Shown here: piece by piece, positions 13,230 to 24,694 of the stretch
Layout: every line of letters starts with the position of its first letter
How positions within the stretch are numbered: the stretch's first letter is position 1
Virus record (IMG/VR): IMGVR_UViG_3300008113_000308
Span: 1 to 26,680 of that record
DNA: 26,680 bases
Strand: one strand, 5' to 3'
Source: a virus
Notes under the pieces: model-generated
Told to the model about the DNA's origin: nothing
Database searches by the model: none
Seen by the model: only the letters and a program-made list of their open reading frames with translations
Translations under genes and position numbers: made by a program

Positions 13230-13278
13230 GGCTACTCATCCTATGTGTTATACTTACTTGCTAATACTGCATGTATTA
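13223..13278. promoter_or_regulatory. Divergent promoter/operator region between late operon and LuxR gene
   Basis: On the plus strand an extended -10 TGTTATACT lies at 13246-13254, with TTGGCA (13223-13228) upstream at a long 20-bp spacing. Transcription would start near 13261, just before an inverted repeat TAATAC-TGCAT-GTATTA (13262-13278) that could be an operator. On the minus strand TATAAC (13252-13247) overlaps the same site and is a weak -10 candidate for the late operon. The word TGTTATACTTAC recurs at the leftward promoter near 17640. Predicted by eye only. Confidence 0.45.
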
Positions 13279-13310: not shown

Positions 13311-13628
13311 ATGGAAGAAGAAACACCAGGCCGACGTGAAGGCGAATATTTTGATGGTTTTGAATGGAAGAAAATCGGCGAAGAGGCAGCACCTGCCGAG
13401 AAGCCAGCGACAGCAGATGGATCTTACGAGCTCAGCCCACGCGAAAAAGAAATCGTAAAAATGATGGCTGGAGGTATGACTGCTAAGCAGATGGCTCAGT
13501 CGCTTCTTATTAGCCACAGGACCGTTCAATTCCATATGGATGCAATGTACTGGAAGCTTGGTTGTAGTGGTCGTGGTGCCCGTGTACAGGCCGTACAGAA
13601 GGCACGTAAGCTAGGCTACATCAAGTAA
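13311..13628 (+). CDS. LuxR-type HTH transcriptional regulator (105 aa)
   Basis: The C-terminal half is a typical LuxR/GerE DNA-binding domain: LSPREKEIVKMMAGGMTAKQMAQSLLISHRTVQFHMDAMYWKLG at residues 41-84, with the recognition helix near SHRTVQFHM (68-76). The first 40 residues are acidic, Pro-rich and probably disordered, so there is no receiver or autoinducer domain; it is a stand-alone HTH protein. AAGGAA lies 7 nt before the ATG. It is one of only two protein genes here on the plus strand within a leftward half of the genome, and it faces the late operon promoter across about 80 bp. That makes it a candidate regulator of late transcription (inference). Confidence 0.85.
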   Translation: MEEETPGRREGEYFDGFEWKKIGEEAAPAEKPATADGSYELSPREKEIVKMMAGGMTAKQMAQSLLISHRTVQFHMDAMYWKLGCSGRGARVQAVQKARKLGYIK

Positions 13629-13635
13629 CGATTAA

Positions 13636-13707
13636 TCCCACTTAGCTCAGCGGTAGAGCATCCGGCTGTTAACCGGACGGTCGTTGGTTCGATCCCAACA
13701 GTGGGAG
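13636..13707 (+). tRNA. tRNA-Asn (anticodon GTT)
   Basis: A full cloverleaf can be drawn. The acceptor stem is TCCCACT with AGTGGGA, discriminator G at 13707. The D arm is GCTC-AGCGGTA-GAGC. The anticodon stem is TCCGG with CCGGA around loop CTGTTAA, giving anticodon GTT (13668-13670) for Asn. The T arm is GTTGG-TTCGATC-CCAAC. CCA is not encoded. It lies 8 bp after the LuxR stop and 11 bp before the next gene, so it is probably cotranscribed with both and must be cut out of that transcript. Confidence 0.95.
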
Positions 13708-14598: not shown

Positions 14599-14919
14599 TT
14601 ACAATTCCTTGTTGAGGTTGTCTAAAAACCTGTTTTCGATCTCTTTTTTGATGTGATCAGCTACGTGATTTGCCACAACTGGCGTGTGTGAGCGCACAAT
14701 ATTGAGTGCAATCAGGTAACCACGTAGGTAGTCGCGATCTACTTGGAGCACTTCCGCCATCTTTTCGATGTTTGGGTCGGTAGGCATACGCTTTCCAGCG
14801 CACCATGTAGAGATTGTCGGCGCATCGACACCCATATAATCCGAGAATCTTCGTTGCGATAGACGTTGTTTGTCAAGAAGACTGTGGATCAGTGTCTTTG
14901 GTTCGTAAGGGCGTTCCAT
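14599..14919 (-). CDS. XRE/Cro-CI type HTH regulator (106 aa)
   Basis: The N-terminal region (about 8-65) reads as a Cro/CI-type helix-turn-helix domain: LIHSLLDKQRLSQRRFSDYMGVDAPTISTWCAGKRMPTDPNIEKMAEVLQVDRDYLRG, with the turn near GVDAPTISTWCAG. The C-terminal 40 residues are helical and charged (VVANHVADHIKKEIENRFLDNLNKEL) and may dimerise. A strong AAGGAGG precedes the ATG and its own promoter lies upstream. It heads the transcript with ssb, so it may be a repressor that controls phage transcription, including itself. No integrase or CI-type protease domain is seen, so lysogeny cannot be inferred. Confidence 0.85.
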   Translation of the reverse strand: MERPYEPKTLIHSLLDKQRLSQRRFSDYMGVDAPTISTWCAGKRMPTDPNIEKMAEVLQVDRDYLRGYLIALNIVRSHTPVVANHVADHIKKEIENRFLDNLNKEL

Positions 14920-16723: not shown

Positions 16724-17116
16724 TCACTTGACTGATTCCCACGTAAGTACTACCCAATCTTTAGCAAGCAAGTCCTCAAGCTCTAAGTCAAGACTGTATG
16801 TAACAAGCTCACTTTCTCTTCGTTCATACACCCTAACAAACCATTTATTTGGCTCATCAATAGCACAGTAATAGTATAAACCTTCAGGCCATGACTCACG
16901 CCTAAAAGGCAATCCATTTTTGATGTGGCCTAAGCAGCTAGTCAAAGAAGATCTCTTGAGCTTTACTTCGCCGCGATCCATAGCAGACTTGATCCTAGAC
17001 ACGTGAGTAGTGCTAATATTGAACTGCCTGGCAATCGTTTGATGCTTCATCTTCTTGGCTATATGCGCCTTAATTTCTTCTAACTGCTCAGGGCTGAGCT
17101 TCTTTCTCCTGTCCAT
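16724..17116 (-). CDS. HTH protein with C-terminal Tad2-like (DUF2829) domain
   Basis: I use ATG 17116 (GGAGG 7 nt upstream), giving 130 residues. The N-terminal part (7-45) is a simple helix-turn-helix: LSPEQLEEIKAHIAKKMKHQTIARQFNISTTHVSRIKSA. The C-terminal part (57-126) follows the DUF2829 pattern: SLTSCLGHIKNGLPFRRESWPEGLYYY, then a short beta segment, then DLELEDLLAKDWVVL. Known members of that family (Tad2) sequester the cyclic ADP-ribose signal of the Thoeris defence system; others are uncharacterised. The matched features are the AL-x-x-IK-G-x-x-x-R-x-W start and the DLLAxDW end. The fusion to HTH is unusual. Alternatively the domain could sense a nucleotide to control DNA binding. 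Confidence 0.6.
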   Translation of the reverse strand: MDRRKKLSPEQLEEIKAHIAKKMKHQTIARQFNISTTHVSRIKSAMDRGEVKLKRSSLTSCLGHIKNGLPFRRESWPEGLYYYCAIDEPNKWFVRVYERRESELVTYSLDLELEDLLAKDWVVLTWESVK

Positions 17117-17614: not shown

Positions 17615-17634
17615 TGTAAACTCCTGTGCTCGTA

Positions 17635-17662
17635 AGTATAACATATTTATTAGGGGATGCAA
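17635..17662 (-). promoter_or_regulatory. Extended -10 promoter of the 17614 leftward operon
   Basis: On the minus strand an extended -10 TGTTATACT lies at 17643-17635 and TTGCAT at 17662-17657, 16 bp apart. Transcription would begin near 17628, leaving a 14-nt leader that holds AGGAG. The same TGTTATACTTAC word is found at the LuxR promoter (13246-13257). Read on the plus strand, CGTAAGTATA here is identical to the core of the repeated element in each array unit. Confidence 0.6.
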
Positions 17663-17841
17663 TGAAATTTAAGGGGAGGTTGTTCTCCGGTGGGAGAAAG
17701 AGGTTGTGGGGATGATCTTCTGTAGCCGTCTGGGCCCATTTTTTTAAATATAGGGGTAGGGGGGCTTGCCACATGGGTAGTGCAGCTAGGGTGGGGGAGG
17801 GGAGGGGGAAGGGGGGAGGGGGGTGCCGAACCGTATTACTC
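17663..17841 (+). other. Intergenic region with G-quadruplex-type tract (17789-17823)
   Basis: No gene is supported here. A hairpin TTCTCC-GGTG-GGAGAA lies at 17683-17698. The right half is very rich in G on the plus strand: from 17789 to 17823 there are six runs of 3, 5, 4, 5, 6 and 6 G, separated by single T or A bases or AA. This strongly fits the rule for intramolecular G-quadruplexes with 1-2 nt loops, and it is also a purine tract able to form triplex DNA. It sits between the leftward operon promoter and the first rightward array unit, so it may affect transcription or replication. Confidence 0.7.
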
Positions 17842-17969
17842 CCCCGCAAGTATGCGTAGCGTAATGACTGTGGCGCGAACTACATGGCGCACGTAAGTAT
17901 ATATATCTTTGTAATAGGGTTAGTGCGTGGTGTATTGCATATAAAGTGTAGCGTAGGAGGCTACATTGT
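17842..17969 (+). promoter_or_regulatory. Array regulatory unit 1
   Basis: First copy of the repeated unit. Box R1 CCCCGCAAGTAT starts at 17842. The AACTACA core follows and is flanked by GGCGC at 17872 and 17886. Box R2 CACGTAAGTATATATAT lies at 17890-17906, then TAATAGG and a -10-like TATAAA at 17940-17945. An inverted repeat GTAGC-GTAGGAG-GCTAC (17948-17964) carries the SD in its loop. The ATG is at 17970. No terminator precedes it, since it opens the array. Confidence 0.75.
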
Positions 17970-18521
17970 ATGGAACCTTGTATCTTTGACTTGTCCGAGC
18001 GGTTCGTCGCGCTCAAAGATGTGATTGCAGATTCTAACCTGCGTCAACTCGTCGATGTTACGTTGCCAGTATACTTTTTTGATTGTCCCGGTGCGAAAAA
18101 GCACCATCACGCTTACCGCCATGGGCTTTTTCAACATACAGTTGAAGTCGCCGAATATGCGGTTTCGATGCTTGAATGCAACGAGGAATATACCGACTAT
18201 GATATGGACATCCTTATCGTTGCCGCCCTGCTACATGATGTAGCAAAAACTACAGAGTATTGCATCGACAACGCCGGTGTCATTACGTACGGTACGTTTG
18301 ACATGGGACACGTCACGAAGTCTGTCCTGATGATGGTACGCGCTAACGCAAAGCATCAGCTATGCGATGAGGCAATGGAAAACCGCATCGCTACAGTGAT
18401 GCTTGCACATCACGGCTTTGCAGAATGGGGTACGCCCCGAGATTGTGCAGTGAACGGACGTAACGCTACGACGTTGCAAGCCGTTCTGCACTCGGCGGAC
18501 ATGGTATCCGCTGGGAAATAA
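17970..18521 (+). CDS. HD-domain hydrolase, YhaM-like (183 aa), cassette 1
   Basis: The protein has the HD metal-site pattern: YRHGLFQHTVEVAEYA (49-64, H51 and H56), ALLHDVAK (86-93, the HD pair H89-D90), a later His pair in MLAHHGFAEWGTP (H147, H148) and Asp in VLHSADMVSA (D177). The HHxxxEWGxP followed by LHxAD end is like the HD domain of YhaM-type 3'-5' exoribonucleases, but the OB-fold RNA-binding domain of YhaM is absent and the N-terminal 40 residues are unfamiliar. It could hydrolyse a nucleotide, a cyclic nucleotide signal or RNA. It is the first gene of the array, with its own promoter unit and a terminator 4 bp after the stop. Confidence 0.75.
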   Translation: MEPCIFDLSERFVALKDVIADSNLRQLVDVTLPVYFFDCPGAKKHHHAYRHGLFQHTVEVAEYAVSMLECNEEYTDYDMDILIVAALLHDVAKTTEYCIDNAGVITYGTFDMGHVTKSVLMMVRANAKHQLCDEAMENRIATVMLAHHGFAEWGTPRDCAVNGRNATTLQAVLHSADMVSAGK

Positions 18522-18524
18522 TCC

Positions 18525-18553
18525 GAGGGCGCTTCGGCGCCCTCTTTTTTTTT
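18525..18553 (+). terminator. Terminator after cassette 1
   Basis: Perfect 8-bp stem GAGGGCGC with GCGCCCTC closed by a TTCG tetraloop, followed by nine T. It begins 4 bp after the stop codon. The same stem sequence ends cassette 4. Confidence 0.95.
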
Positions 18554-18575
18554 GTGCCGCGATCGCCCACTATCG

Positions 18576-18704
18576 CCCCGCTGGTATAGCAAGAATAGTG
18601 AGCTGCTGCGATCTACATATCGCACGTAAGTATATATCTATGTCTAATAGGCGCGTGACGTAATGTAATGCATATAAAGTGTCGGTAGAAAGAAAGGTTT
18701 AGTT
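18576..18704 (+). promoter_or_regulatory. Array regulatory unit 2
   Basis: R1 variant CCCCGCTGGTATAG is at 18576-18589 and the ATCTACA core near 18611. In this copy TGCGAT-CTACAT-ATCGCA is an inverted repeat around the core. R2 CACGTAAGTATATAT is at 18623, then TAATAGG and TATAAA at 18673-18678. The leader is of the second type, TCGGTAGAAAGAAAGG, shared only with unit 3 and without the hairpin. The ATG is at 18705. Confidence 0.75.
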
Positions 18705-18857
18705 ATGAGTTTCAAACAATGGCAAACAGTTGCCAAGACATGTGTTAGCGTCGCTTGTTGTATCGTTTGCGGCTGGTCGTTTTACAACGACTTCAGCGTG
18801 ACACTCTGCGTCAGTGCAATGTGGATTGCCATCTTCATCTGGGAGAAAAATAAATGA
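18705..18857 (+). CDS. Small two-span membrane protein (50 aa), cassette 2
   Basis: A 50-codon gene sits exactly where the repeated regulatory unit predicts one: AAGAAAGG is about 10 nt before the ATG at 18705, and its TGA overlaps the next ATG (ATGA, 18854-18857). The product begins MSFKQWQTVAKTCVSVACC and has two hydrophobic stretches, about residues 8-26 and 29-46, with Cys in both and a short charged end EKNK. It is likely an inner-membrane hairpin protein. A role as holin-like or superinfection/host membrane factor is possible; nothing in the sequence decides. Confidence 0.7.
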   Translation: MSFKQWQTVAKTCVSVACCIVCGWSFYNDFSVTLCVSAMWIAIFIWEKNK

Positions 18858-19072
18858 GACCAATGAGAGTTACAACGTACTGGGGAAACCCAGTACGCCG
18901 CCATCTAAAGGCGGGAATACGACGTGAGCGGAATGCGGCACGCCGCTCTACCTGTCGCTTCTGCAAGGGGGCGAGAAAGTTAGGGTGGAATGAAGATTCC
19001 GTCCTATGCTTCTGCTACGGTGAAGAGGCTGACAATCGCACGTGTTCGTGCTGGTGCAGTTGCGGTAAGTAA
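18854..19072 (+). CDS. Cys-rich, Arg-rich small protein (72 aa), cassette 2
   Basis: Translationally coupled to the membrane protein through the ATGA overlap, this is the only second gene within a cassette. The first half is basic (MRPMRVTTYWGNPVRRHLKAGIRRERNAARR). The second half has CRFCKGARKLGWNEDSVLCFCYGEEADNRTCSCWCSCGK, with CxxC, CxC and CxCxCxC arrangements suited to binding zinc or another metal. It may be a compact nucleic-acid-binding protein. No family is recognised. A terminator begins 7 bp downstream. Confidence 0.65.
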   Translation: MRPMRVTTYWGNPVRRHLKAGIRRERNAARRSTCRFCKGARKLGWNEDSVLCFCYGEEADNRTCSCWCSCGK

Positions 19073-19078
19073 TCAGAA

Positions 19079-19108
19079 GAGGGCGTGCCGACCGCCCTCT
19101 TTTTTTTT
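19079..19108 (+). terminator. Terminator after cassette 2
   Basis: Stem GAGGGCG with CGCCCTC around loop TGCCGAC, followed by nine T. It differs from the cassette 3 terminator only in the loop. Confidence 0.93.
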
Positions 19109-19131
19109 GTGCTAAAAATCGCCCACTCGCA

Positions 19132-19262
19132 CCCCGTCAGTATAGGTACGATTGTGTCTGCCCAGGATCTACATGCACCAGGTAAGTATATATATCTTTG
19201 TAATAGGCACGTGACGTGGTGTATTGCATATAAAGTGTCGGTAGAAAGAAAGGTTTAGTATT
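19132..19262 (+). promoter_or_regulatory. Array regulatory unit 3
   Basis: R1 variant CCCCGTCAGTATAG is at 19132-19145. The core ATCTACA has CCAGG on its left and again before R2, where all complete units have CACG or a close form, so both copies changed together. R2 is CCAGGTAAGTATATATAT at 19178-19195, then TAATAGG and TATAAA at 19229-19234. The leader TCGGTAGAAAGAAAGG is as in unit 2. The ATG is at 19263. Confidence 0.75.
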
Positions 19263-19664
19263 ATGTTGGTTTTGATTCTTGGAGTCCTGTGCTCCGTTAT
19301 GCTTCTCGTCACGGTTATCGCTTGTGGAAAGTACATTGAACAGGTACACCACAGCGAGTCATTGCAACGTAGTGTAGACATCTACACTGCACGCTCCGCT
19401 AAGGATTGGAATACAATCATGAAACTCTTGGCGGACAATAAAAACGCTCTCGGTATATGGGAACTGTGCAAGAAAGAACTTGACAATGAGCGAAACATCT
19501 GCGCTCATTACAAGTCGCTGTATCGGCAAGCGATTGCAGAAGCGCAAGAAGAGCGTGACGCAAAGAAAGTACTGCGCGAACAGTTAGCCAACAAAACGCA
19601 AGAAGTCGTGGTACTTGCTAGGGAGTTGGACACATACATCGCCAAGTTTGAGGGCGATATGTAG
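19263..19664 (+). CDS. Membrane-anchored coiled-coil protein (133 aa), cassette 3
   Basis: The N-terminus is a strong transmembrane segment (LVLILGVLCSVMLLVTVIACG, residues 2-22) with few flanking charges. A long helical, charged region with heptad-like patterns follows (LQRSVDIYTARSAKDWNTIMKLL, CKKELDNERNICAHYKSLYRQAIAEAQEERDAKKVLREQLANKTQEVVVLARELDTYIAKF). The topology resembles an inner-membrane spanin (i-spanin) or other signal-anchor coiled coil, but no lipoprotein partner gene is seen nearby. Alternatively it is a bacterial-envelope modifying early protein. The terminator starts 8 bp downstream. Confidence 0.65.
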   Translation: MLVLILGVLCSVMLLVTVIACGKYIEQVHHSESLQRSVDIYTARSAKDWNTIMKLLADNKNALGIWELCKKELDNERNICAHYKSLYRQAIAEAQEERDAKKVLREQLANKTQEVVVLARELDTYIAKFEGDM

Positions 19665-19671
19665 TGACAAA

Positions 19672-19700
19672 GAGGGCGCACCGACCGCCCTCTTTTTTTT
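19672..19700 (+). terminator. Terminator after cassette 3
   Basis: Stem GAGGGCG with CGCCCTC around loop CACCGAC, followed by eight T. Confidence 0.93.
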
Positions 19701-19723
19701 GTGCTAAAAATCGCCCACGCACG

Positions 19724-19850
19724 CCCCGCTGGTATAGGTGTGGTGTAATCTAGCCACGATCTACATTCGCCACGTAAGTATATATCTATGTCTAATAGGC
19801 GTACGGCGTAGTGTAATGCATATATTGTGTAGCATAGGAGGCTACGTATC
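19724..19850 (+). promoter_or_regulatory. Array regulatory unit 4
   Basis: R1 variant CCCCGCTGGTATAG is at 19724-19737. GCCACG-ATCTACA-TTC-GCCACG gives an exact 6-bp direct repeat with 16-bp period. R2 CACGTAAGTATATAT is at 19771, then TAATAGG and -10-like TATATT at 19821-19826. The inverted repeat GTAGC-ATAGGAG-GCTAC is at 19829-19845 with the SD in the loop. The ATG is at 19851. Confidence 0.78.
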
Positions 19851-20273
19851 ATGCAGTATGTTGTTCAGCGCAGAAACGCTCTGGGTCGCCTAGAGTGGTT
19901 AGGCGAGTTCGCTAGACTTAAAGAGGCGCTCGCCAAAGTAAAGGAAATCAACCGTGACCGTGGACGTTGTTACAAGTTATACCCAGCGTATATCTACGAC
20001 ACAGTAGACGGTTGCATCTATCGCCAAAAAGACTTGAGTGGATACCACTGCATCTTTGTTGGTGGCTCATCATATAGCATTGGTGAACCGGAGTACTTCA
20101 AGAGTATTCCAGCTATCAAGAATGCGTTGTGGCGCAGACTTGATGACCAACGGATGTATCCATGTCTCGATGACGACGCCTACTTTGAGTGCTACGTTGG
20201 AGAGGTCGGCGACTATCCTGACTTCATCATCAAAGTTGGTCCACGTGGCGGGATAATAAAAGAATCCTGCTAA
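19851..20273 (+). CDS. Unknown protein (140 aa), cassette 4
   Basis: The product starts MQYVVQRRNALGRLEWLGEFARLKEALAKVKEINRDRGRCYKLYPAYIYDT. It has a basic N-terminal half with a beta-helix-beta feel, and a C-terminal half with aromatic and acidic residues (YFKSIPAIKNALWRRLDDQRMYPCLDDDAYFECYVGEVGDYPDFIIKVGPRGG). Five Cys are scattered. I do not recognise the family. It has its own promoter unit and a terminator 5 bp downstream, so it is expressed as a single-gene transcript. Confidence 0.65.
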   Translation: MQYVVQRRNALGRLEWLGEFARLKEALAKVKEINRDRGRCYKLYPAYIYDTVDGCIYRQKDLSGYHCIFVGGSSYSIGEPEYFKSIPAIKNALWRRLDDQRMYPCLDDDAYFECYVGEVGDYPDFIIKVGPRGGIIKESC

Positions 20274-20277
20274 CTCA

Positions 20278-20304
20278 GAGGGCGCTTCGGCGCCCTCTTT
20301 TTTT
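20278..20304 (+). terminator. Terminator after cassette 4
   Basis: Stem GAGGGCGC with GCGCCCTC and TTCG tetraloop, followed by seven T; identical hairpin to that after cassette 1. Confidence 0.95.
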
Positions 20305-20325
20305 GTCATTTGACGCCCACCAGCA

Positions 20326-20471
20326 CCCCGTCAGTATAGCCGAGAGTAGTGGATCAGCACGATCTACACACAGCACGTAAGTATATATATTGTTGTAATA
20401 GGTGCGTCGCGTGGTGTATTGCATATAAAGTGTACGGTGAAAACCGATACTCACTCGGAGGTTTGCCTATC
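20326..20471 (+). promoter_or_regulatory. Array regulatory unit 5
   Basis: R1 CCCCGTCAGTATAG is at 20326-20339. CAGCACG-ATCTACA-CA-CAGCACG is an exact 7-bp direct repeat with 16-bp period. R2 CACGTAAGTATATATAT is at 20374-20390, then TAATAGG and TATAAA at 20424-20429. The leader is longer and unlike the others: a CGGT-GAAA-ACCG hairpin (20435-20446) with a GNRA-type loop, then SD CGGAGG near 20456 and ATG at 20472. Confidence 0.75.
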
Positions 20472-21182
20472 ATGGCAGAACGTAAAACTGACCGCGAGCA
20501 ATGGCTCGCAATGATTCAACACGATACCGGGCGGCACTTTCTCGACTCGGGCGGCGCCTATGGGCGGCACTTTGAGCGCAACGCAGGTTTGACCCTCGCC
20601 GATGTCGAATGGGACTTTCGTTTGAACGTCCGTTCATACGGTTGGGACATCACCCGCAACGTCGTAGATGCATTGTGTACATTCTTCACCATTGATGATG
20701 ATTACACTGATGCACTCAACGCGGTTGCAGAAACAATGCCTGATGCATCATGGGGCGAAGTGGTAGAGCACTTCTTCACAAAGAGCCTGATGGCAAAAAG
20801 CGTAGGCGCTCACAACACATACAACAGCGAAAGCTTCCTTTCCCAAGAAGTCCTGTTTTACAACTGCACCATTCAAGATGGCGAGTGCGATTGGGACGAC
20901 GTCACGTTGTATGCAGTCATGACCCACAACGGTTGCGATATACGCGGCGGATATTCATATCCTGTTATCGCTCGGTTGCAGGATGAAGACGCATGGTTTG
21001 ACGTTGCGTGTTGCGACCTGCGGTGCAGTGCCGGTCACGGGTTCTATACCGATGACACATGGAACTGGTACGGTCACAACAGCGAGGGCAACTACAAAAG
21101 CGATGACTTCAAGGTCATCAAAGCGAGCACACCTTGGTTGCGATGTCCTGTACCAGGATGTCGTTGCAAGGTTACCTTGTAA
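20472..21182 (+). CDS. Conserved phage protein with DSGGAYGR motif, unknown function (236 aa), cassette 5
   Basis: The start is ATG 20472 (MAERKTDREQWLAMIQHDTGRHFLDSGGAYGRHFERN) after a CGGAGG site. The LDSGGAYGRxxERN motif is one I recall from hypothetical proteins of many phages. The middle is rich in acidic and aromatic residues. The C-terminus has paired Cys (ACCDLRCSAGHG and WLRCPVPGCRCKV), which may bind metal. No enzymatic activity is known to me for this family. It has its own promoter unit and a terminator 4 bp after the stop. Confidence 0.7.
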   Translation: MAERKTDREQWLAMIQHDTGRHFLDSGGAYGRHFERNAGLTLADVEWDFRLNVRSYGWDITRNVVDALCTFFTIDDDYTDALNAVAETMPDASWGEVVEHFFTKSLMAKSVGAHNTYNSESFLSQEVLFYNCTIQDGECDWDDVTLYAVMTHNGCDIRGGYSYPVIARLQDEDAWFDVACCDLRCSAGHGFYTDDTWNWYGHNSEGNYKSDDFKVIKASTPWLRCPVPGCRCKVTL

Positions 21183-21185
21183 CTT

Positions 21186-21214
21186 GGTGGGGGCTTCGGC
21201 TCCCACCTTTTTTT
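21186..21214 (+). terminator. Terminator after cassette 5
   Basis: A 9-bp stem GGTGGGGGC with GCTCCCACC (one G-U), TTCG tetraloop, seven T. The same hairpin ends cassettes 8 and 9. Confidence 0.95.
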
Positions 21215-21235
21215 GTGCGCCAAACCCCACAGCCG

Positions 21236-21362
21236 CCCCGCAAGTATGGATGTGATGTCAATGTCGCACGATCTACATCGCGCACGTAAGTATATATCTA
21301 TCTGTAGTTGGTGCGTGACGTGCTGTAATGCATATATTGTGTAGCATAGGAGGCTACATCGT
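21236..21362 (+). promoter_or_regulatory. Array regulatory unit 6
   Basis: R1 CCCCGCAAGTATG is at 21236-21248. CGCACG-ATCTACA-TCG-CGCACG is an exact 6-bp direct repeat with 16-bp period. R2 CACGTAAGTATATAT is at 21283. TAGTTGG replaces TAATAGG. TATATT is at 21333-21338 and the inverted repeat GTAGC-ATAGGAG-GCTAC at 21341-21357. The ATG is at 21363. Confidence 0.78.
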
Positions 21363-21719
21363 ATGGAAAAACTTATGTCGGAAGCGTACCGCGTCATGAC
21401 GATTGGTATGCTCATTGACCACATCGAAGATGGCATCAAGGCACAAGACCTTGAACCACTGATGCTCACCACTGACGAAATCTACGAGATGTTTACTGAC
21501 ACAAATGTAGACGTCACCGTCGACGGAAACCACCTCGGCACCATGGTTGGTCTCGAATGGGCTCTCAAGGTGCTTCGCGAGTCTCAGGACGTTATTTGGC
21601 AGGTCGCATACAATCATGACTTTGGTCGTGATGAGTGGACAAATGCAATCAAATACGTCGAAGGATTGCTTGAGAAGCAACCTGACAAAGACGCTTGGGT
21701 TTTGCAGGTTACCGACTAA
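21363..21719 (+). CDS. Small acidic protein, unknown function (118 aa), cassette 6
   Basis: The product is acidic and helical (MEKLMSEAYRVMTIGMLIDHIEDGIKAQDLEPLMLTTDEIYEMFTDTNVDVTVDGNHLGTMVGLEWALKVLRESQDVIW), with a C-terminal helix DEWTNAIKYVEGLLEKQPDKD. No Cys and no signal peptide. Small acidic soluble proteins of this kind are common among early phage inhibitors and DNA mimics, but that is only an analogy. I do not recognise the family. A terminator begins 3 bp after the stop. Confidence 0.65.
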   Translation: MEKLMSEAYRVMTIGMLIDHIEDGIKAQDLEPLMLTTDEIYEMFTDTNVDVTVDGNHLGTMVGLEWALKVLRESQDVIWQVAYNHDFGRDEWTNAIKYVEGLLEKQPDKDAWVLQVTD

Positions 21720-21721
21720 CA

Positions 21722-21752
21722 GAGGGGAGGCGAAAGCCTCCTCTTTTTTTTT
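21722..21752 (+). terminator. Terminator after cassette 6
   Basis: Stem GGAGGC with GCCTCC, extended by GG with TC, and a GAAA tetraloop, followed by nine T. It differs in stem and loop from the other array terminators. Confidence 0.93.
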
Positions 21753-21771
21753 GTGCCAAACCCCACGCTCC

Positions 21772-21899
21772 CCCCGCAAGTACAGATGAGGTGGTATTGG
21801 CCCACGATCTACAAAGCCCACGTAAGTATATGTATCTTTGTAATAGGCGCATCGCGTACCATATTGCATATATTGTGTAGCATAGGAGGCTACATTGTT
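21772..21899 (+). promoter_or_regulatory. Array regulatory unit 7
   Basis: R1 CCCCGCAAGTAC is at 21772. GCCCACG-ATCTACA-AA-GCCCACG is an exact 7-bp direct repeat with 16-bp period. R2 CACGTAAGTATATGTAT is at 21819, then TAATAGG, TATATT at 21869-21874 and the inverted repeat GTAGC-ATAGGAG-GCTAC at 21877-21893. The ATG is at 21900. Confidence 0.78.
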
Positions 21900-22520
21900 A
21901 TGACAGAGACACAACAGAAGGCTTTCGACGCCTTCACCGCATCCGCGAAAGCATGGTTCACCATGGAAGCGGAACGCCTTGGCTGGACATCGATGAAGCA
22001 CGTCCCTATCGTGTGCAAGACCTATCTTGCAACGTATTTTGAGGACATCGAAGACGGTGAAACATGCGTCGACAATCGCCTTGTGCTTGAGATAGGCGTC
22101 TTTCATGATTGCGACCGGACACCAACCAGCGAATGCTCTGGATGTTCTGACGTCGAAAGCATCTACTACAGCATCGGTGGCGACTCTGAATCAGAGGAGT
22201 TGCTGCAAGAATGGGCTAAGTTATTCAATGATGACGTCAGCCCGTTTATGCCAGATTTCTTCAACTGGGACGGCAACGCTGAACCAGACGGCGACATCAT
22301 CCTGTGTGACTGGGACGACTATGACGACGACGACCCAGACGGCGACTTTGACTTTGCAGACCCAACCGGCGTCTCATCGTTGCGTCGCGCAACGGAAAGC
22401 AATCCGCGCAACCTGCCATGCAGACAGTGCGGTCGCGAGAATGTGCTGACACCCAAGGACAGGAGCCTTGGATACGTATGTGACATGTGCGCCAACCTCA
22501 ACGAGAGGGGAGGCTTCTAA
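21900..22520 (+). CDS. Acidic protein with C-terminal zinc ribbon (206 aa), cassette 7
   Basis: Start at ATG 21900 (MTETQQKAFDAFTASAKAWFTMEAERLGW). The middle contains ECSGCSD and several acidic patches, ending in a highly acidic run rich in Asp near residue 140-155 (DWDDYDDDDPDGDFDFAD). The C-terminus has CRQCGRENV-x(n)-YVCDMCANL, a CxxC-x(16-18)-CxxC zinc ribbon. The acidic run could mimic DNA and the ribbon could bind a protein or nucleic acid. No family is recognised. A terminator begins 5 bp downstream. Confidence 0.65.
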   Translation: MTETQQKAFDAFTASAKAWFTMEAERLGWTSMKHVPIVCKTYLATYFEDIEDGETCVDNRLVLEIGVFHDCDRTPTSECSGCSDVESIYYSIGGDSESEELLQEWAKLFNDDVSPFMPDFFNWDGNAEPDGDIILCDWDDYDDDDPDGDFDFADPTGVSSLRRATESNPRNLPCRQCGRENVLTPKDRSLGYVCDMCANLNERGGF

Positions 22521-22524
22521 TCTA

Positions 22525-22552
22525 GAGGGTGCTTCGGCACCCTCTTTTTTTT
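22525..22552 (+). terminator. Terminator after cassette 7
   Basis: Stem GAGGGTGC with GCACCCTC and TTCG tetraloop, followed by eight T. Relative to cassettes 1 and 4 one stem pair is changed on both sides (C-G to T-A), so pairing is kept. Confidence 0.95.
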
Positions 22553-22574
22553 GTCGCTGCGCTGCCCACACTCA

Positions 22575-22701
22575 CCCCGTCAGTATAGGTGGAGTGTCAA
22601 AGCTGGCACGATCTACACGCTGCACGTAAGTATATATCTGTATCTAATAGGCGTGTGGCGTGCCATATTGCATATAAAGTGTTACTAGGAGGTAACAACA
22701 A
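22575..22701 (+). promoter_or_regulatory. Array regulatory unit 8
   Basis: R1 CCCCGTCAGTATAG is at 22575-22588. GCACG flanks the ATCTACA core on both sides. R2 CACGTAAGTATATAT is at 22623, then TAATAGG and TATAAA at 22673-22678. The inverted repeat here is GTTAC-TAGGAG-GTAAC (22681-22696), a different stem with pairing kept and the SD still in the loop. The ATG is at 22702. Confidence 0.78.
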
Positions 22702-23226
22702 ATGGTTAAGTTTCTCATCGTACTTGCTGAGTTGTTCAGCAGTTTCGCCGCTAAGTTGCACAACCTTTCTGAGGAAGTGCCATCCGACTCCATTGATCGC
22801 GAGGCAGTCCTTGACATCGTGCAGGACGCTGTCAATGAGGGTCACCTCAAATTGCCTTCTAATGAGGAGGTTATCAACCCCGAAGATCTTTACGGTCTTG
22901 ATCGTTTTGTCGACAATCAAATCGACACGTACGATTTTGACGGGATTCTCGACCGCCGATTGTTTGAGGAGCAAACAATGGCTCTCGTCAACACCTATGC
23001 GTTTGACAATCGCATGGATTGTGCAAACATCTCTTGGGACAGAGAGTGTCAAGAGATGCGCGAGTACATGCACAAGCGCTGGGAAGTTTGGTCAGAAGAG
23101 CGCAAGAATCGTGAGGCACGAAAGCGTGACCAGATCATTAAGGAATACCTGAAGAGTCAGGAATGTCCTCCGTCACCGCATCGATTGATCATCACCAATC
23201 ACAAAGACGGAGACGTCAAGATCTAA
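22702..23226 (+). CDS. Helical charged protein, unknown function (174 aa), cassette 8
   Basis: The product starts with a weakly hydrophobic helix (MVKFLIVLAELFSSFAAKLHNLSEE), possibly amphipathic and not a clear signal. It continues as charged helices (DREAVLDIVQDAVNEGHLKLPSNEEV, GILDRRLFEEQTMALVNTYAFDNRMDCANISWDRECQEMREYMHKRWEVWSEERKNREARKRDQIIKEYL). No motif is recognised. It is preceded by the unit whose SD hairpin has the alternative stem, and a terminator follows 4 bp after the stop. Confidence 0.65.
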   Translation: MVKFLIVLAELFSSFAAKLHNLSEEVPSDSIDREAVLDIVQDAVNEGHLKLPSNEEVINPEDLYGLDRFVDNQIDTYDFDGILDRRLFEEQTMALVNTYAFDNRMDCANISWDRECQEMREYMHKRWEVWSEERKNREARKRDQIIKEYLKSQECPPSPHRLIITNHKDGDVKI

Positions 23227-23229
23227 CTT

Positions 23230-23258
23230 GGTGGGGGCTTCGGCTCCCACCTTTTTTT
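23230..23258 (+). terminator. Terminator after cassette 8
   Basis: Stem GGTGGGGGC with GCTCCCACC and TTCG tetraloop, seven T; same as after cassettes 5 and 9, including the CTT before the stem shared with cassette 5. Confidence 0.95.
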
Positions 23259-23280
23259 GTCAAAAAGCTGCCCACACCCT

Positions 23281-23408
23281 CCCCGCAAGTATGACTAGAG
23301 GTGGTATTGGCCCACGAACTACACGGCCCACGTAAGTATGTGATTGTCTGTGGTTGGAGTGTGACGTGGCATATTGCAATATTTATGTAGCATAGGAGGC
23401 TACTGTTT
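23281..23408 (+). promoter_or_regulatory. Array regulatory unit 9
   Basis: R1 CCCCGCAAGTATG is at 23281. GGCCCACG-AACTACA-C-GGCCCACG is an exact 8-bp direct repeat with 16-bp period, the longest in the array. R2 is CACGTAAGTATG at 23329. TGGTTGG replaces TAATAGG. The -10-like box is altered to TATTTA at 23380-23385. The inverted repeat GTAGC-ATAGGAG-GCTAC is at 23387-23403. The ATG is at 23409. Confidence 0.75.
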
Positions 23409-24233
23409 ATGCGTCTTTACAATCGTGCAGGAAATCCTGCCTTCAACACCGCTATAGTGTGGCGCGGTGTGTCCCCATGGGACAATGTCACACCAATCGC
23501 GCTCTGGGTTACCGGTCTGGAAACGTCTGCCGACAAGGCAAACGATAAGACCGGCGACATGGTGCAAACGTACATCATGCGCACCGATATGTCGCCGCTT
23601 GACGCGTTGCAATATCAGGACGCCGCTATTTGTGGCGACTGTATCAACCGCTTGCAGATGCGAACACGCGTCAATCACCGCACCGGGAAACTGGAAACGC
23701 ATGCGGTAAATACCTGCTACGTGCAGGTCGGAAACGCGCCGACAGCTATGTGGAAATCATATCTAAACGGTAACGTTGCAGACGTCGACGTGGCAGACAT
23801 CAATGAGATGATTCGCCGCTTCAACAGGCAGACCCGTGTCGGCGCATACGGTGATCCTGCTATGGTTCCGTTTCCGGTGTGGCGTTCGCTGTTGGACAAT
23901 GTCCGCATCGACAAGGGACACACCGCATACACGCATCAATGGAAGCGTGAATGGGCGCAGGATTTCAAAGGCATGTGCCAAGCTTCCTGCGACAGCATAG
24001 AGGAAGCGCGGGAAGCCAAGGCGATGGGATGGGGAACATTCACCGTCCTTGCACAGGCGAACTTTGATGTCGAATGGCAGACGCTTCGGCGTGAACGCCA
24101 CACACGCTGTCCGGCAGACACAAGTCTCAAGACCTTGCGCAAGGTTACCTGTTCCGACTGCGGTCGGTGCAACGGACAGCCTGACATGCACAATGTCATC
24201 AAGGTCCACGGATCCGCCGCTCTGTGGAGATAA
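23409..24233 (+). CDS. Widespread phage protein of unknown function, DUF7227-like (274 aa), cassette 9
   Basis: The sequence fits a family I know from many phages and plasmids, catalogued I believe as DUF7227. It has an N-terminal NDKTGDMVQTYIMRTDMSPLDAL, then ICGDC (about 77-81), NTCYVQVGNAPTAMWKSYLNG (96-120), RVGAYGDPAMVPFPVW (about 140-157), YTHQWK and a C-terminal CxASCDSIEEAREAKAMGWGTFTVL. These are normally followed by a Cys-rich tail, here TCSDCGRCNG. The conserved Cys residues suggest a metal site. No activity is established to my knowledge. It is the last complete cassette, and its terminator starts 3 bp after the stop. Confidence 0.65.
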   Translation: MRLYNRAGNPAFNTAIVWRGVSPWDNVTPIALWVTGLETSADKANDKTGDMVQTYIMRTDMSPLDALQYQDAAICGDCINRLQMRTRVNHRTGKLETHAVNTCYVQVGNAPTAMWKSYLNGNVADVDVADINEMIRRFNRQTRVGAYGDPAMVPFPVWRSLLDNVRIDKGHTAYTHQWKREWAQDFKGMCQASCDSIEEAREAKAMGWGTFTVLAQANFDVEWQTLRRERHTRCPADTSLKTLRKVTCSDCGRCNGQPDMHNVIKVHGSAALWR

Positions 24234-24235
24234 TC

Positions 24236-24265
24236 GGTGGGGGCTTCGGCTCCCACCTTTTTTTT
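24236..24265 (+). terminator. Terminator after cassette 9
   Basis: Stem GGTGGGGGC with GCTCCCACC and TTCG tetraloop, eight T. Confidence 0.95.
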
Positions 24266-24288
24266 GTGCCTGATGGCACCCCACACGA

Positions 24289-24350
24289 CCCCTGTAGGTA
24301 TAGTCTCGTGTTGTTGCCACACCACGATCCTACACGCACACGTAAGTATA
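24289..24350 (+). repeat. Truncated tenth regulatory unit closing the array
   Basis: R1 variant CCCCTGTAGGTATAG (24289-24303), a core with one inserted base (ATCCTACA), CACG-type half-sites and R2 CACGTAAGTATA (24339-24350) are present. The match then stops abruptly: no TAATAGG, no -10-like box, no SD inverted repeat and no adjacent gene. It marks where the homology block ends and suggests that R1 to R2 is a unit on its own. Confidence 0.75.
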
Positions 24351-24694
24351 GACCCTCCTAAGTAGCCGTTCCGCTGTGGTCGGCGAGAAAAACGCGAGAA
24401 AAACGCCGAATAAGACACGCGATCATCTCTCCTGTGCAAATGCGCAGCTAACGGCGAAACAGGGCAGGTTGCCGACTTACGGGGCGCACAGCAGGTATTT
24501 TTTTATTTGGCTCGAGCTGTAGGGACTTCGTCCGTTCCAAACCCACCTCATTTCTCCTAAAATCTCGCGACTTTCCCCAGATCGTTCCCACCACTTCATC
24601 CTGCTGTGATATTTCTCACTGGCGATGCCTGTGATGTTTCTGTAGCATTGGTTATCTTCTCTACCAAATGAGAAGACGTTGGAGGTTTATTGTT
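24351..24694 (+). other. Noncoding region between array and next operon, with phased A-tracts
   Basis: No gene is supported over about 340 bp. At 24383-24406 an 11-bp unit GCGAGAAAAAC is repeated in tandem, which puts two A5 tracts one helical turn apart, inside a short inverted repeat CGGCG/CGCCG (24381-24385 and 24404-24408). Further right there is a T7 run near 24498 and a pyrimidine-rich stretch around 24540-24600. Phased A-tracts bend DNA and occur at origins and promoters. A weak promoter for the next operon (TTCCCA and GATATT, about 24583-24611) is possible. Confidence 0.4.

Follow-up and report, generated by a model that had tools for sequence, protein, structure and literature searches.

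The phage record IMGVR_UViG_3300008113_000308 carries an array of small genes in which conserved control DNA accompanies unrelated coding sequences. The window, meaning the whole stretch of DNA analysed, is the entire linear IMG/VR virus record of 26,680 bp. Its array consists of nine promoter-like units (17844-23408) that precede ten open reading frames (ORFs), and ends in a tenth unit without a promoter part (24292-24350). We propose, at a probability of roughly 0.65, that the array is a set of independent transcription units, each with a shared type of regulated promoter, a leader hairpin, and a private terminator, and that cassettes are exchanged via these units. The new element is the leader hairpin, seen in most leaders, which often holds the Shine-Dalgarno sequence in its loop and shows compensatory changes in its stem.

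Array layout, units and leader hairpins

The full units are built in one order: box R1, a core, box R2, box B, a TATAAA or TATATT box, a TGT a few bases on, and the leader. R1 (CCGYNAGTAY) is followed 31-32 bp further on by the core (CGATCTACA); R2 (CACGTAAGTATA) lies at a fixed 16 bp from the core, measured from CG to CG. Box B (TNTAAT-AGG) stands at core+34 and the TATAAA/TATATT box at core+64 in most units. R1 and R2 are themselves related through the common pattern C-CG-N2-RGTAY. The window has 12 copies of the R2 12-mer at no more than one mismatch, versus a mean of 0.09 and a maximum of 1 in 100 dinucleotide shuffles; two of the 12 matches fall outside the array, at 13249 on the minus strand and 17629 on the plus strand. 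A search for the unit in cultured phages gave no match.

An initial annotation, made from the letters alone, had described nine blocks on one plan. All nine are present, but it missed the tenth module, and two motifs are less uniform than it stated: seven of the nine units have an exact TAATAGG (unit 6 reads TAGTTGG and unit 9 TGGTTGG), and TATAAA or TATATT is found in 8 of 9, with CAATATTTATG in unit 9. The array thus holds ten R1/core/R2 modules. The last has no box B, TATAAA or gene, and carries a 1-nt insertion in its core (CGATCCTACA); a promoterless terminal module also closes the array of those relatives for which this end was read.

One gene per cassette, with two in cassette 2, had been predicted, and the ten ORFs bear this out. 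So too the contrast between conserved regulatory DNA and unrelated genes: within the window, the cassette ORFs have no mutual similarity at E<=1e-3. The known function among them is that of an HD-domain protein only, and the idea that cassette genes are defence systems was set aside on weak matches. Private terminators are present in 9/9 cassettes as a GC hairpin with a T tract, beginning 1-7 bp past the stop codon and not 3 to 8 as first described. The region holds 21 terminator-like sites, versus 5.9 +/- 2.4 in shuffles.

Most leaders have a hairpin that begins 2-4 nt past the TATAAA box, and its loop often contains the Shine-Dalgarno sequence. Stems of four or more pairs that enclose this sequence in their loop are found in 32/56 leaders, where shuffling the rest of the leader gives 7.2; of 52 distinct leaders, 42 have a hairpin of -3 kcal/mol or better starting no more than 4 nt from the conserved TGT (14.7 expected). 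Stem changes are compensatory: across 19 distinct stem-bearing leaders, which were selected for having a stem, so that the weight rests on the unselected counts of 32/56 and 42/52, standard pairs fill 94.7% of pair cells versus 78.0% when shuffled (0/500 as high). Four of six pairs in these leaders are altered on both sides, and the signal is lost when the partners are slid. The hairpin keeps its position across several leaders of unrelated sequence, and it probably acts in the mRNA. No known RNA family matches the leaders at Rfam gathering thresholds; the only match in the window is a tRNA elsewhere. In a separate variant, the group D contig L209 (phage G006) has units with a doubled core (GAACTACggcgCGATCTACA) and leader hairpins without a Shine-Dalgarno sequence.

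Related phages: conserved units and changing genes

At least eight other uncultured IMG/VR phages follow the same plan, and the array-bearing phages fall into about five divergent groups: G002 and G003 (group A, with the window), G009, G014, and G015 (B), G033 (B-like), G011 and G012 (C), and G006 (D). The core-to-R2 spacing is 16 nt in 62/63 units. The letters of R2 are characteristic of each group and near-uniform within a phage: GTAAG in A, mostly GTAGG in B, GTCGG or GTTGG in G033, and mostly GCAGG in C. Units average 0.75-0.78 identity within a phage, against 0.66-0.70 between groups. When units from different groups are compared, those of orthologous genes resemble one another on average no more than those of unrelated genes; within group A, units of orthologous genes are clearly closer for most cassettes (0.74-0.95). 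Units are therefore homogenised within a lineage while their genes stay recognisable. No array was seen in the stretches read from an outgroup with 68-75% terminase identity, and pattern-scan matches in contigs L203, L206, and L210 were dismissed as isolated chance sites.

A finer signal lies beside the boxes. The flanks 5-8 nt left of the core and of R2, which form direct repeats, match within a unit more than between units (P=0.0004 in the window, 0.0006 in G003, 0.003 in G009, and 0.0002 in G015), and this match is absent in group C. In a fixed-window scan it is the strongest signal in group A. The arms of R1 are weakly complementary within units, at P of about 0.002-0.035 in 3 of 4 group A and B phages tested. 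Local slippage between two similar sites would be a dull explanation of the covarying flanks.

Between these units, genes are gained, lost, reordered, and regrouped. In the window, the cassette gene families run 6, 11, 7, 3, 8, 4, 2, 5, 1. G002 repeats this order save for an unrelated gene in cassette 2, leaving 8/9 cassettes in register, and G003 carries family 2 before a diverged family-4 gene, the reverse of the window. Group B retains families 4, 5, and 1 and gains 9, 12, 13, and 14; arrays of group C have only families 1 and 3 in common with group A. Family 4 is the sole family of its cassette in the window, G002, G003, and G009, but is paired with family 2 in G015 and with family 9 in G033. 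Groups A and B keep the succession of families 4/2, 5, and 1. Family 1 closes the array in all phages except G011, and in the relatives' arrays it is last or second-to-last. The initial annotation had named one pattern that would speak against gene swapping, namely the same nine genes in the same order between diverged flanks; the relatives present something else, given the changed cassette 2, the reversal of families 4 and 2, and the content of group C.

Family 1 (DUF7227) is also found in many phages without an array; gene and unit are therefore separable. Its relatives extend to 147 cultured phage records (Mycobacterium, Gordonia, Klebsiella, Microcystis, Roseobacter, and others). The DUF7227-bearing viral contigs L121, L128, L129, and L132 hold other, unrelated multi-copy repeats: CTAATTATTAG in 9-12 copies, GGTTACTGACT in 8, and GTTGGGAATCCCAAC in about 8.

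Transcription, regulation and rival explanations

We propose that each single-gene, occasionally two-gene, cassette is its own transcription unit under one shared promoter type. A phage regulator would bind at the R1-core-R2 boxes, and host RNA polymerase would be recruited by one or two -10-like elements (box B, TATAAA). The leader would then fold into its hairpin, often presenting the Shine-Dalgarno sequence in the loop, and the private terminator would close the unit, allowing it to work alone. Recombination between units would let cassettes be gained, lost, exchanged, and moved while regulation is kept: cassettes would be exchangeable because near-identical control DNA brackets every gene and no neighbour is needed.

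The units are probably promoters. Box B varies as TGTAAT, TAGAAT, TATGGT, and TACAGT, the later box as TATAAA, TATATT, and TATGAT; their resemblance to a -10 element is slightly above shuffles (4.64 and 4.93, respectively, vs 4.04). Stem covariation implies that the 5' arm of the hairpin is transcribed, yet this arm starts 2-4 nt past the later box. Either transcription therefore begins unusually near that box, or the main, and perhaps the true, -10 is box B, some 24-32 bp further upstream. Promoters for a T7-type RNA polymerase were rejected: PF00940 is missing from 14 relatives, and the T7 control was positive.

The likeliest regulator of the array is a protein of the HTH_3 (Cro/C1-type) family. 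HTH_3 is encoded in 8/8 array-bearing records and in 0/13 others, whose array-less status comes from pattern and repeat searches of partial stretches; it is present in group D as well. The protein's recognition-helix region is DAPTIS in A, DRPNVS in B, and DESTAS in C, groups whose R2 types differ as well; this fits a regulator changing together with its sites. The GerE protein is less favoured, being common in array-less phages too, and as the sole explanation it was rejected on that ground. R2-like boxes at 13246-13262 and 17629-17640 coincide in part with extended -10 elements (TGTTATACT), those of the GerE gene and of the leftward operon, and the array regulator may act on these promoters too. 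Covariation of the leftward R2 box with the group proved inconsistent, as the boxes of G003 and G033 differ from their own arrays.

Several results weigh against our proposal. The units have no TTGACA-type -35, and a generic sigma-70 scan counts no more promoters than in shuffles. With the hairpin arm so near TATAAA, the start site is ambiguous and the distance too short for a canonical -10. The HTH_3 link is confounded by ancestry, as all arrays belong to a single lineage. Gene order is conserved far beyond free shuffling and is fairly stable among close relatives, and no RecT-family annealing protein was found. The selection of the 19 leaders and the partial stretches behind the 13 array-less records belong on the same side.

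An ordinary regulon would require only that one regulator recognise all units; genes would arrive via illegitimate recombination and afterwards retain or acquire a unit, and the shared flanks would not be the route of exchange. This account is possible but doubtful. The concerted change of R2 letters within each phage (GTAAG, GTAGG, GTCGG, GCAGG) looks as if it tracks a regulator, close relatives largely keep their gene order, and no recombination enzyme came to light: tyrosine (PF00589) and serine recombinases are lacking in seven array-bearing records, while the controls were positive, for PF00589 in 14/14. A regulon sits less well with cassette 2, where the leader type switches along with the gene among the window, G002, and G003, or with family 4, which has different cassette partners in G015 and G033. 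Within-phage homogenisation, moreover, extends to box B and leader type, which lie beyond any plausible operator.

The missing recombinases also count against an integron-like reading, in which R1-core-R2 is a site-specific recombination site, the genes are mobile cassettes, and unit 10 is the terminal site. Modules do outnumber cassettes by one, the last is promoterless wherever the array end was read, and unit-specific flanks covary around core/R2 and R1 in most group A and B phages; but this covariation is absent in group C and all modules save the last are joined to promoter parts, and we consider the reading highly improbable, the least favoured of those weighed. The same covarying flanks (direct repeats at core/R2, weaker inverted arms at R1) and the promoterless terminal copy underlie a broader suggestion, that R1-core-R2 is a structural or recombination element beyond an operator which lets a lytic phage keep a rearrangeable gene array; we hold this to be unlikely. 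The initial annotation had also compared the cassettes to a row of morons, which would imply a temperate phage. A promoter-like unit and terminator for each gene, and gene content that varies between relatives, agree with such a reading. The array is constant across a whole lineage and not a sporadic insertion, integrase and resolvase were not found, and relatives are missing from the bacterial and archaeal genome collection; lysogeny is unsupported and morons are very unlikely.

Independent transcription units with exchange via their control DNA is thus the reading we prefer, and homologous recombination between units probably moves the cassettes. The earlier suggestion of a gene-swapping platform holds insofar as the same units accompany different gene sets; it is qualified by an order that is largely kept, by the lack of a dedicated enzyme, and by the fact that we infer recombination via the units.

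Genome setting and known phage elements

Leftward genes, among them the large terminase, the portal, and other virion genes, make up most of the left part of the window; to the right lie the array and more rightward genes (Table 1). Compared with cultured phages, terminase and portal have distant relatives only (22-32% identity), the portal's being in Microbacterium phage Shocker and Cellulosimicrobium phage DS1, which are non-T4 phages. An actinobacterial host is therefore a guess. Terminase relatives are encoded on 143 stretches among the viral contigs searched; none came to light in the bacterial and archaeal genome collection, and thus no provirus copies and no host by this route.

Other features lie nearby. 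A tRNA gene (13636-13707; Rfam match, anticodon GTT by eye) is flanked by the GerE gene and a DUF6321 gene. On the minus strand, 16724-17116 encodes a protein whose N-terminus holds an HTH_7 and whose C-terminus weakly matches, under the Pfam cut-off, a Tad2-like (Thoeris anti-defence) domain. Immediately left of unit 1, a G-rich tract (17770-17832; runs of 4-6 G), also present in G002 and G003, is possibly a G-quadruplex, a terminator, or a replication feature. Directly past the terminal module lies an iteron-like repeat, GGCGAGAAAAACGCGAGAAAAACGCC (24377-24406), with a similar one in G002.

Table 1. Positions of the array components and candidate regulators in the window
Feature	Position	Strand	Details
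Unit 1	17844..17969	+	R1 17844, core 17876, R2 17890, box B (TGTAAT) 17910, TATAAA 17940
Unit 1 leader hairpin	within 17844..17969	+	TGTAGC-GTAGGAG-GCTACA
Cassette 1 gene, HD-domain protein, 183 aa	17970..18521	+	Pfam HD E=1.4e-9, phrog_5889
Terminator 1	18525..18553	+	
Unit 2	18578..18704	+	core 18609, R2 18623
Cassette 2 genes, 50 aa + 72 aa, overlapping	18705..19072	+	unrelated 80-aa gene instead in G002
Terminator 2	19075..19108	+	
Unit 3	19134..19262	+	core 19165, R2 19179; CAGG variant in core and R2 flanks
Cassette 3 gene, 133 aa	19263..19664	+	hydrophobic N-terminus
Terminator 3	19669..19700	+	
Unit 4	19726..19850	+	core 19757, R2 19771; hairpin with Shine-Dalgarno in loop
Cassette 4 gene, 140 aa	19851..20273	+	family 3, common to group C
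Terminator 4	20277..20304	+	
Unit 5	20328..20471	+	core 20360, R2 20374; structured, longer leader
Cassette 5 gene, 236 aa	20472..21182	+	phrog_11344
Terminator 5	21186..21214	+	
Unit 6	21238..21362	+	core 21269, R2 21283; hairpin with Shine-Dalgarno in loop
Cassette 6 gene, 118 aa	21363..21719	+	family 4; relocated in G003, G015, G033
Terminator 6	21721..21752	+	
Unit 7	21774..21899	+	core 21805, R2 21819; hairpin with Shine-Dalgarno in loop
Cassette 7 gene, 206 aa	21900..22520	+	family 2
Terminator 7	22524..22552	+	
Unit 8	22577..22701	+	core 22609, R2 22623; hairpin TGTTAC-TAGGAG-GTAACA
Cassette 8 gene, 174 aa	22702..23226	+	family 5
Terminator 8	23230..23258	+	
Unit 9	23283..23408	+	core 23315, R2 23329; hairpin with Shine-Dalgarno in loop; most divergent promoter part
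Cassette 9 gene, 274 aa, DUF7227	23409..24233	+	family 1; Pfam E=6.5e-8, phrog_2554
Terminator 9	24236..24265	+	
Unit 10, promoterless R1-core-R2 module	24292..24350	+	core 24325
HTH_3 (Cro/C1-type) protein, candidate regulator	14599..14919	-	Pfam E=1.2e-11
GerE/LuxR-type HTH protein, second candidate regulator	13311..13628	+	Pfam E=6.5e-15
Extra R2 box overlapping extended -10 (TGTTATACT) of leftward operon	17629..17640	+	

The closest likeness is to the start-associated sequence (SAS) of cluster K mycobacteriophages, a 13-bp element (GGGATAGGAGCCC, GGG-ATAGGAG-CCC) directly before the start codon (PMC3203893, PMC11373665). Its authors noted the outer symmetry without assigning it a pairing role, and its conservation beyond the ribosome-binding site was unexplained in 2011 (PMC3203893); its role was still ill-defined in 2024 (PMC11373665). 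The accompanying ESAS is a putative promoter with a repeat element whose letters are subcluster-specific (PMC3203893, PMC11373665). As in the array, a repeated unit precedes many unrelated non-structural genes, and the SAS loop ATAGGAG is also the array loop, for example in TGTAGC-ATAGGAG-GCTACA and its stem variants, where the flanks are symmetric and the start codon follows after a few nt. In phages Anaya and ZoeJ, several SAS sites lie behind an ESAS with TTGACA, and a hairpin with a T-rich tract lies ahead of the ESAS. Cluster K hosts are actinobacteria, and the distant portal relatives of the array phage are also found in actinobacterial phages.

The differences are equally plain. The SAS consensus has no match in the window at up to 2 mismatches, and one 3-mismatch match inside a gene; the ESAS has a 17-bp imperfect inverted repeat and a TTGACA -35, the array R1, core, and R2 and no TTGACA. 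SAS stems are near-constant, whereas array stems vary with compensation, and cluster K units are scattered among operons, whereas array units form one contiguous block. The initial annotation had mentioned the mycobacteriophage elements while knowing of no sequence match, which was correct; it missed the structured leader, the part that resembles them. Because of the compensatory stems and the shared loop in this array, we suggest that the SAS may likewise be an RNA hairpin presenting the Shine-Dalgarno sequence.

The modular side recalls the promoter early stem-loop (PeSL) of T4-type phages, described in PMC4503421 and PMC3950731 as composite promoter-terminator units between small accessory genes and linked there to modular shuffling (Arbiol et al. 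2010, Comeau et al. 2014, as cited in both). Set against that description only, the array has clear terminators between small genes and promoters that are only predicted, and shares the association with genes gained, lost, and reordered among relatives; beyond the PeSL as so described, it has a multi-box upstream region and the leader hairpin, in a non-T4 lineage. The haloarchaeal virus HGTV-1 has a TATA-like motif and an inverted repeat before most ORFs of one genome half (PMC3950731); it is an archaeal virus, and that brief account describes neither a hairpin with a Shine-Dalgarno sequence nor terminators. In integron cassette arrays, a tyrosine recombinase acts on attC-like sites, and the array phages have no PF00589 match in the seven records. 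A moron is a prophage accessory gene with its own promoter and terminator; the array has its own units, with no integrase or prophage found.

The array is real, conserved, and modular, and it combines PeSL-like cassettes with SAS/ESAS-like control. The plan of terminator, regulated promoter, hairpin with the Shine-Dalgarno sequence in its loop, and gene extends beyond cluster K mycobacteriophages, and it can be packed into one contiguous gene-swapping array. The compensatory stems turn the role of the SAS into a concrete hypothesis, that of an RNA hairpin presenting the Shine-Dalgarno sequence. With replicate promoters in each phage and about five divergent groups, the array also offers a setting in which to study the joint change of a regulator and its sites.

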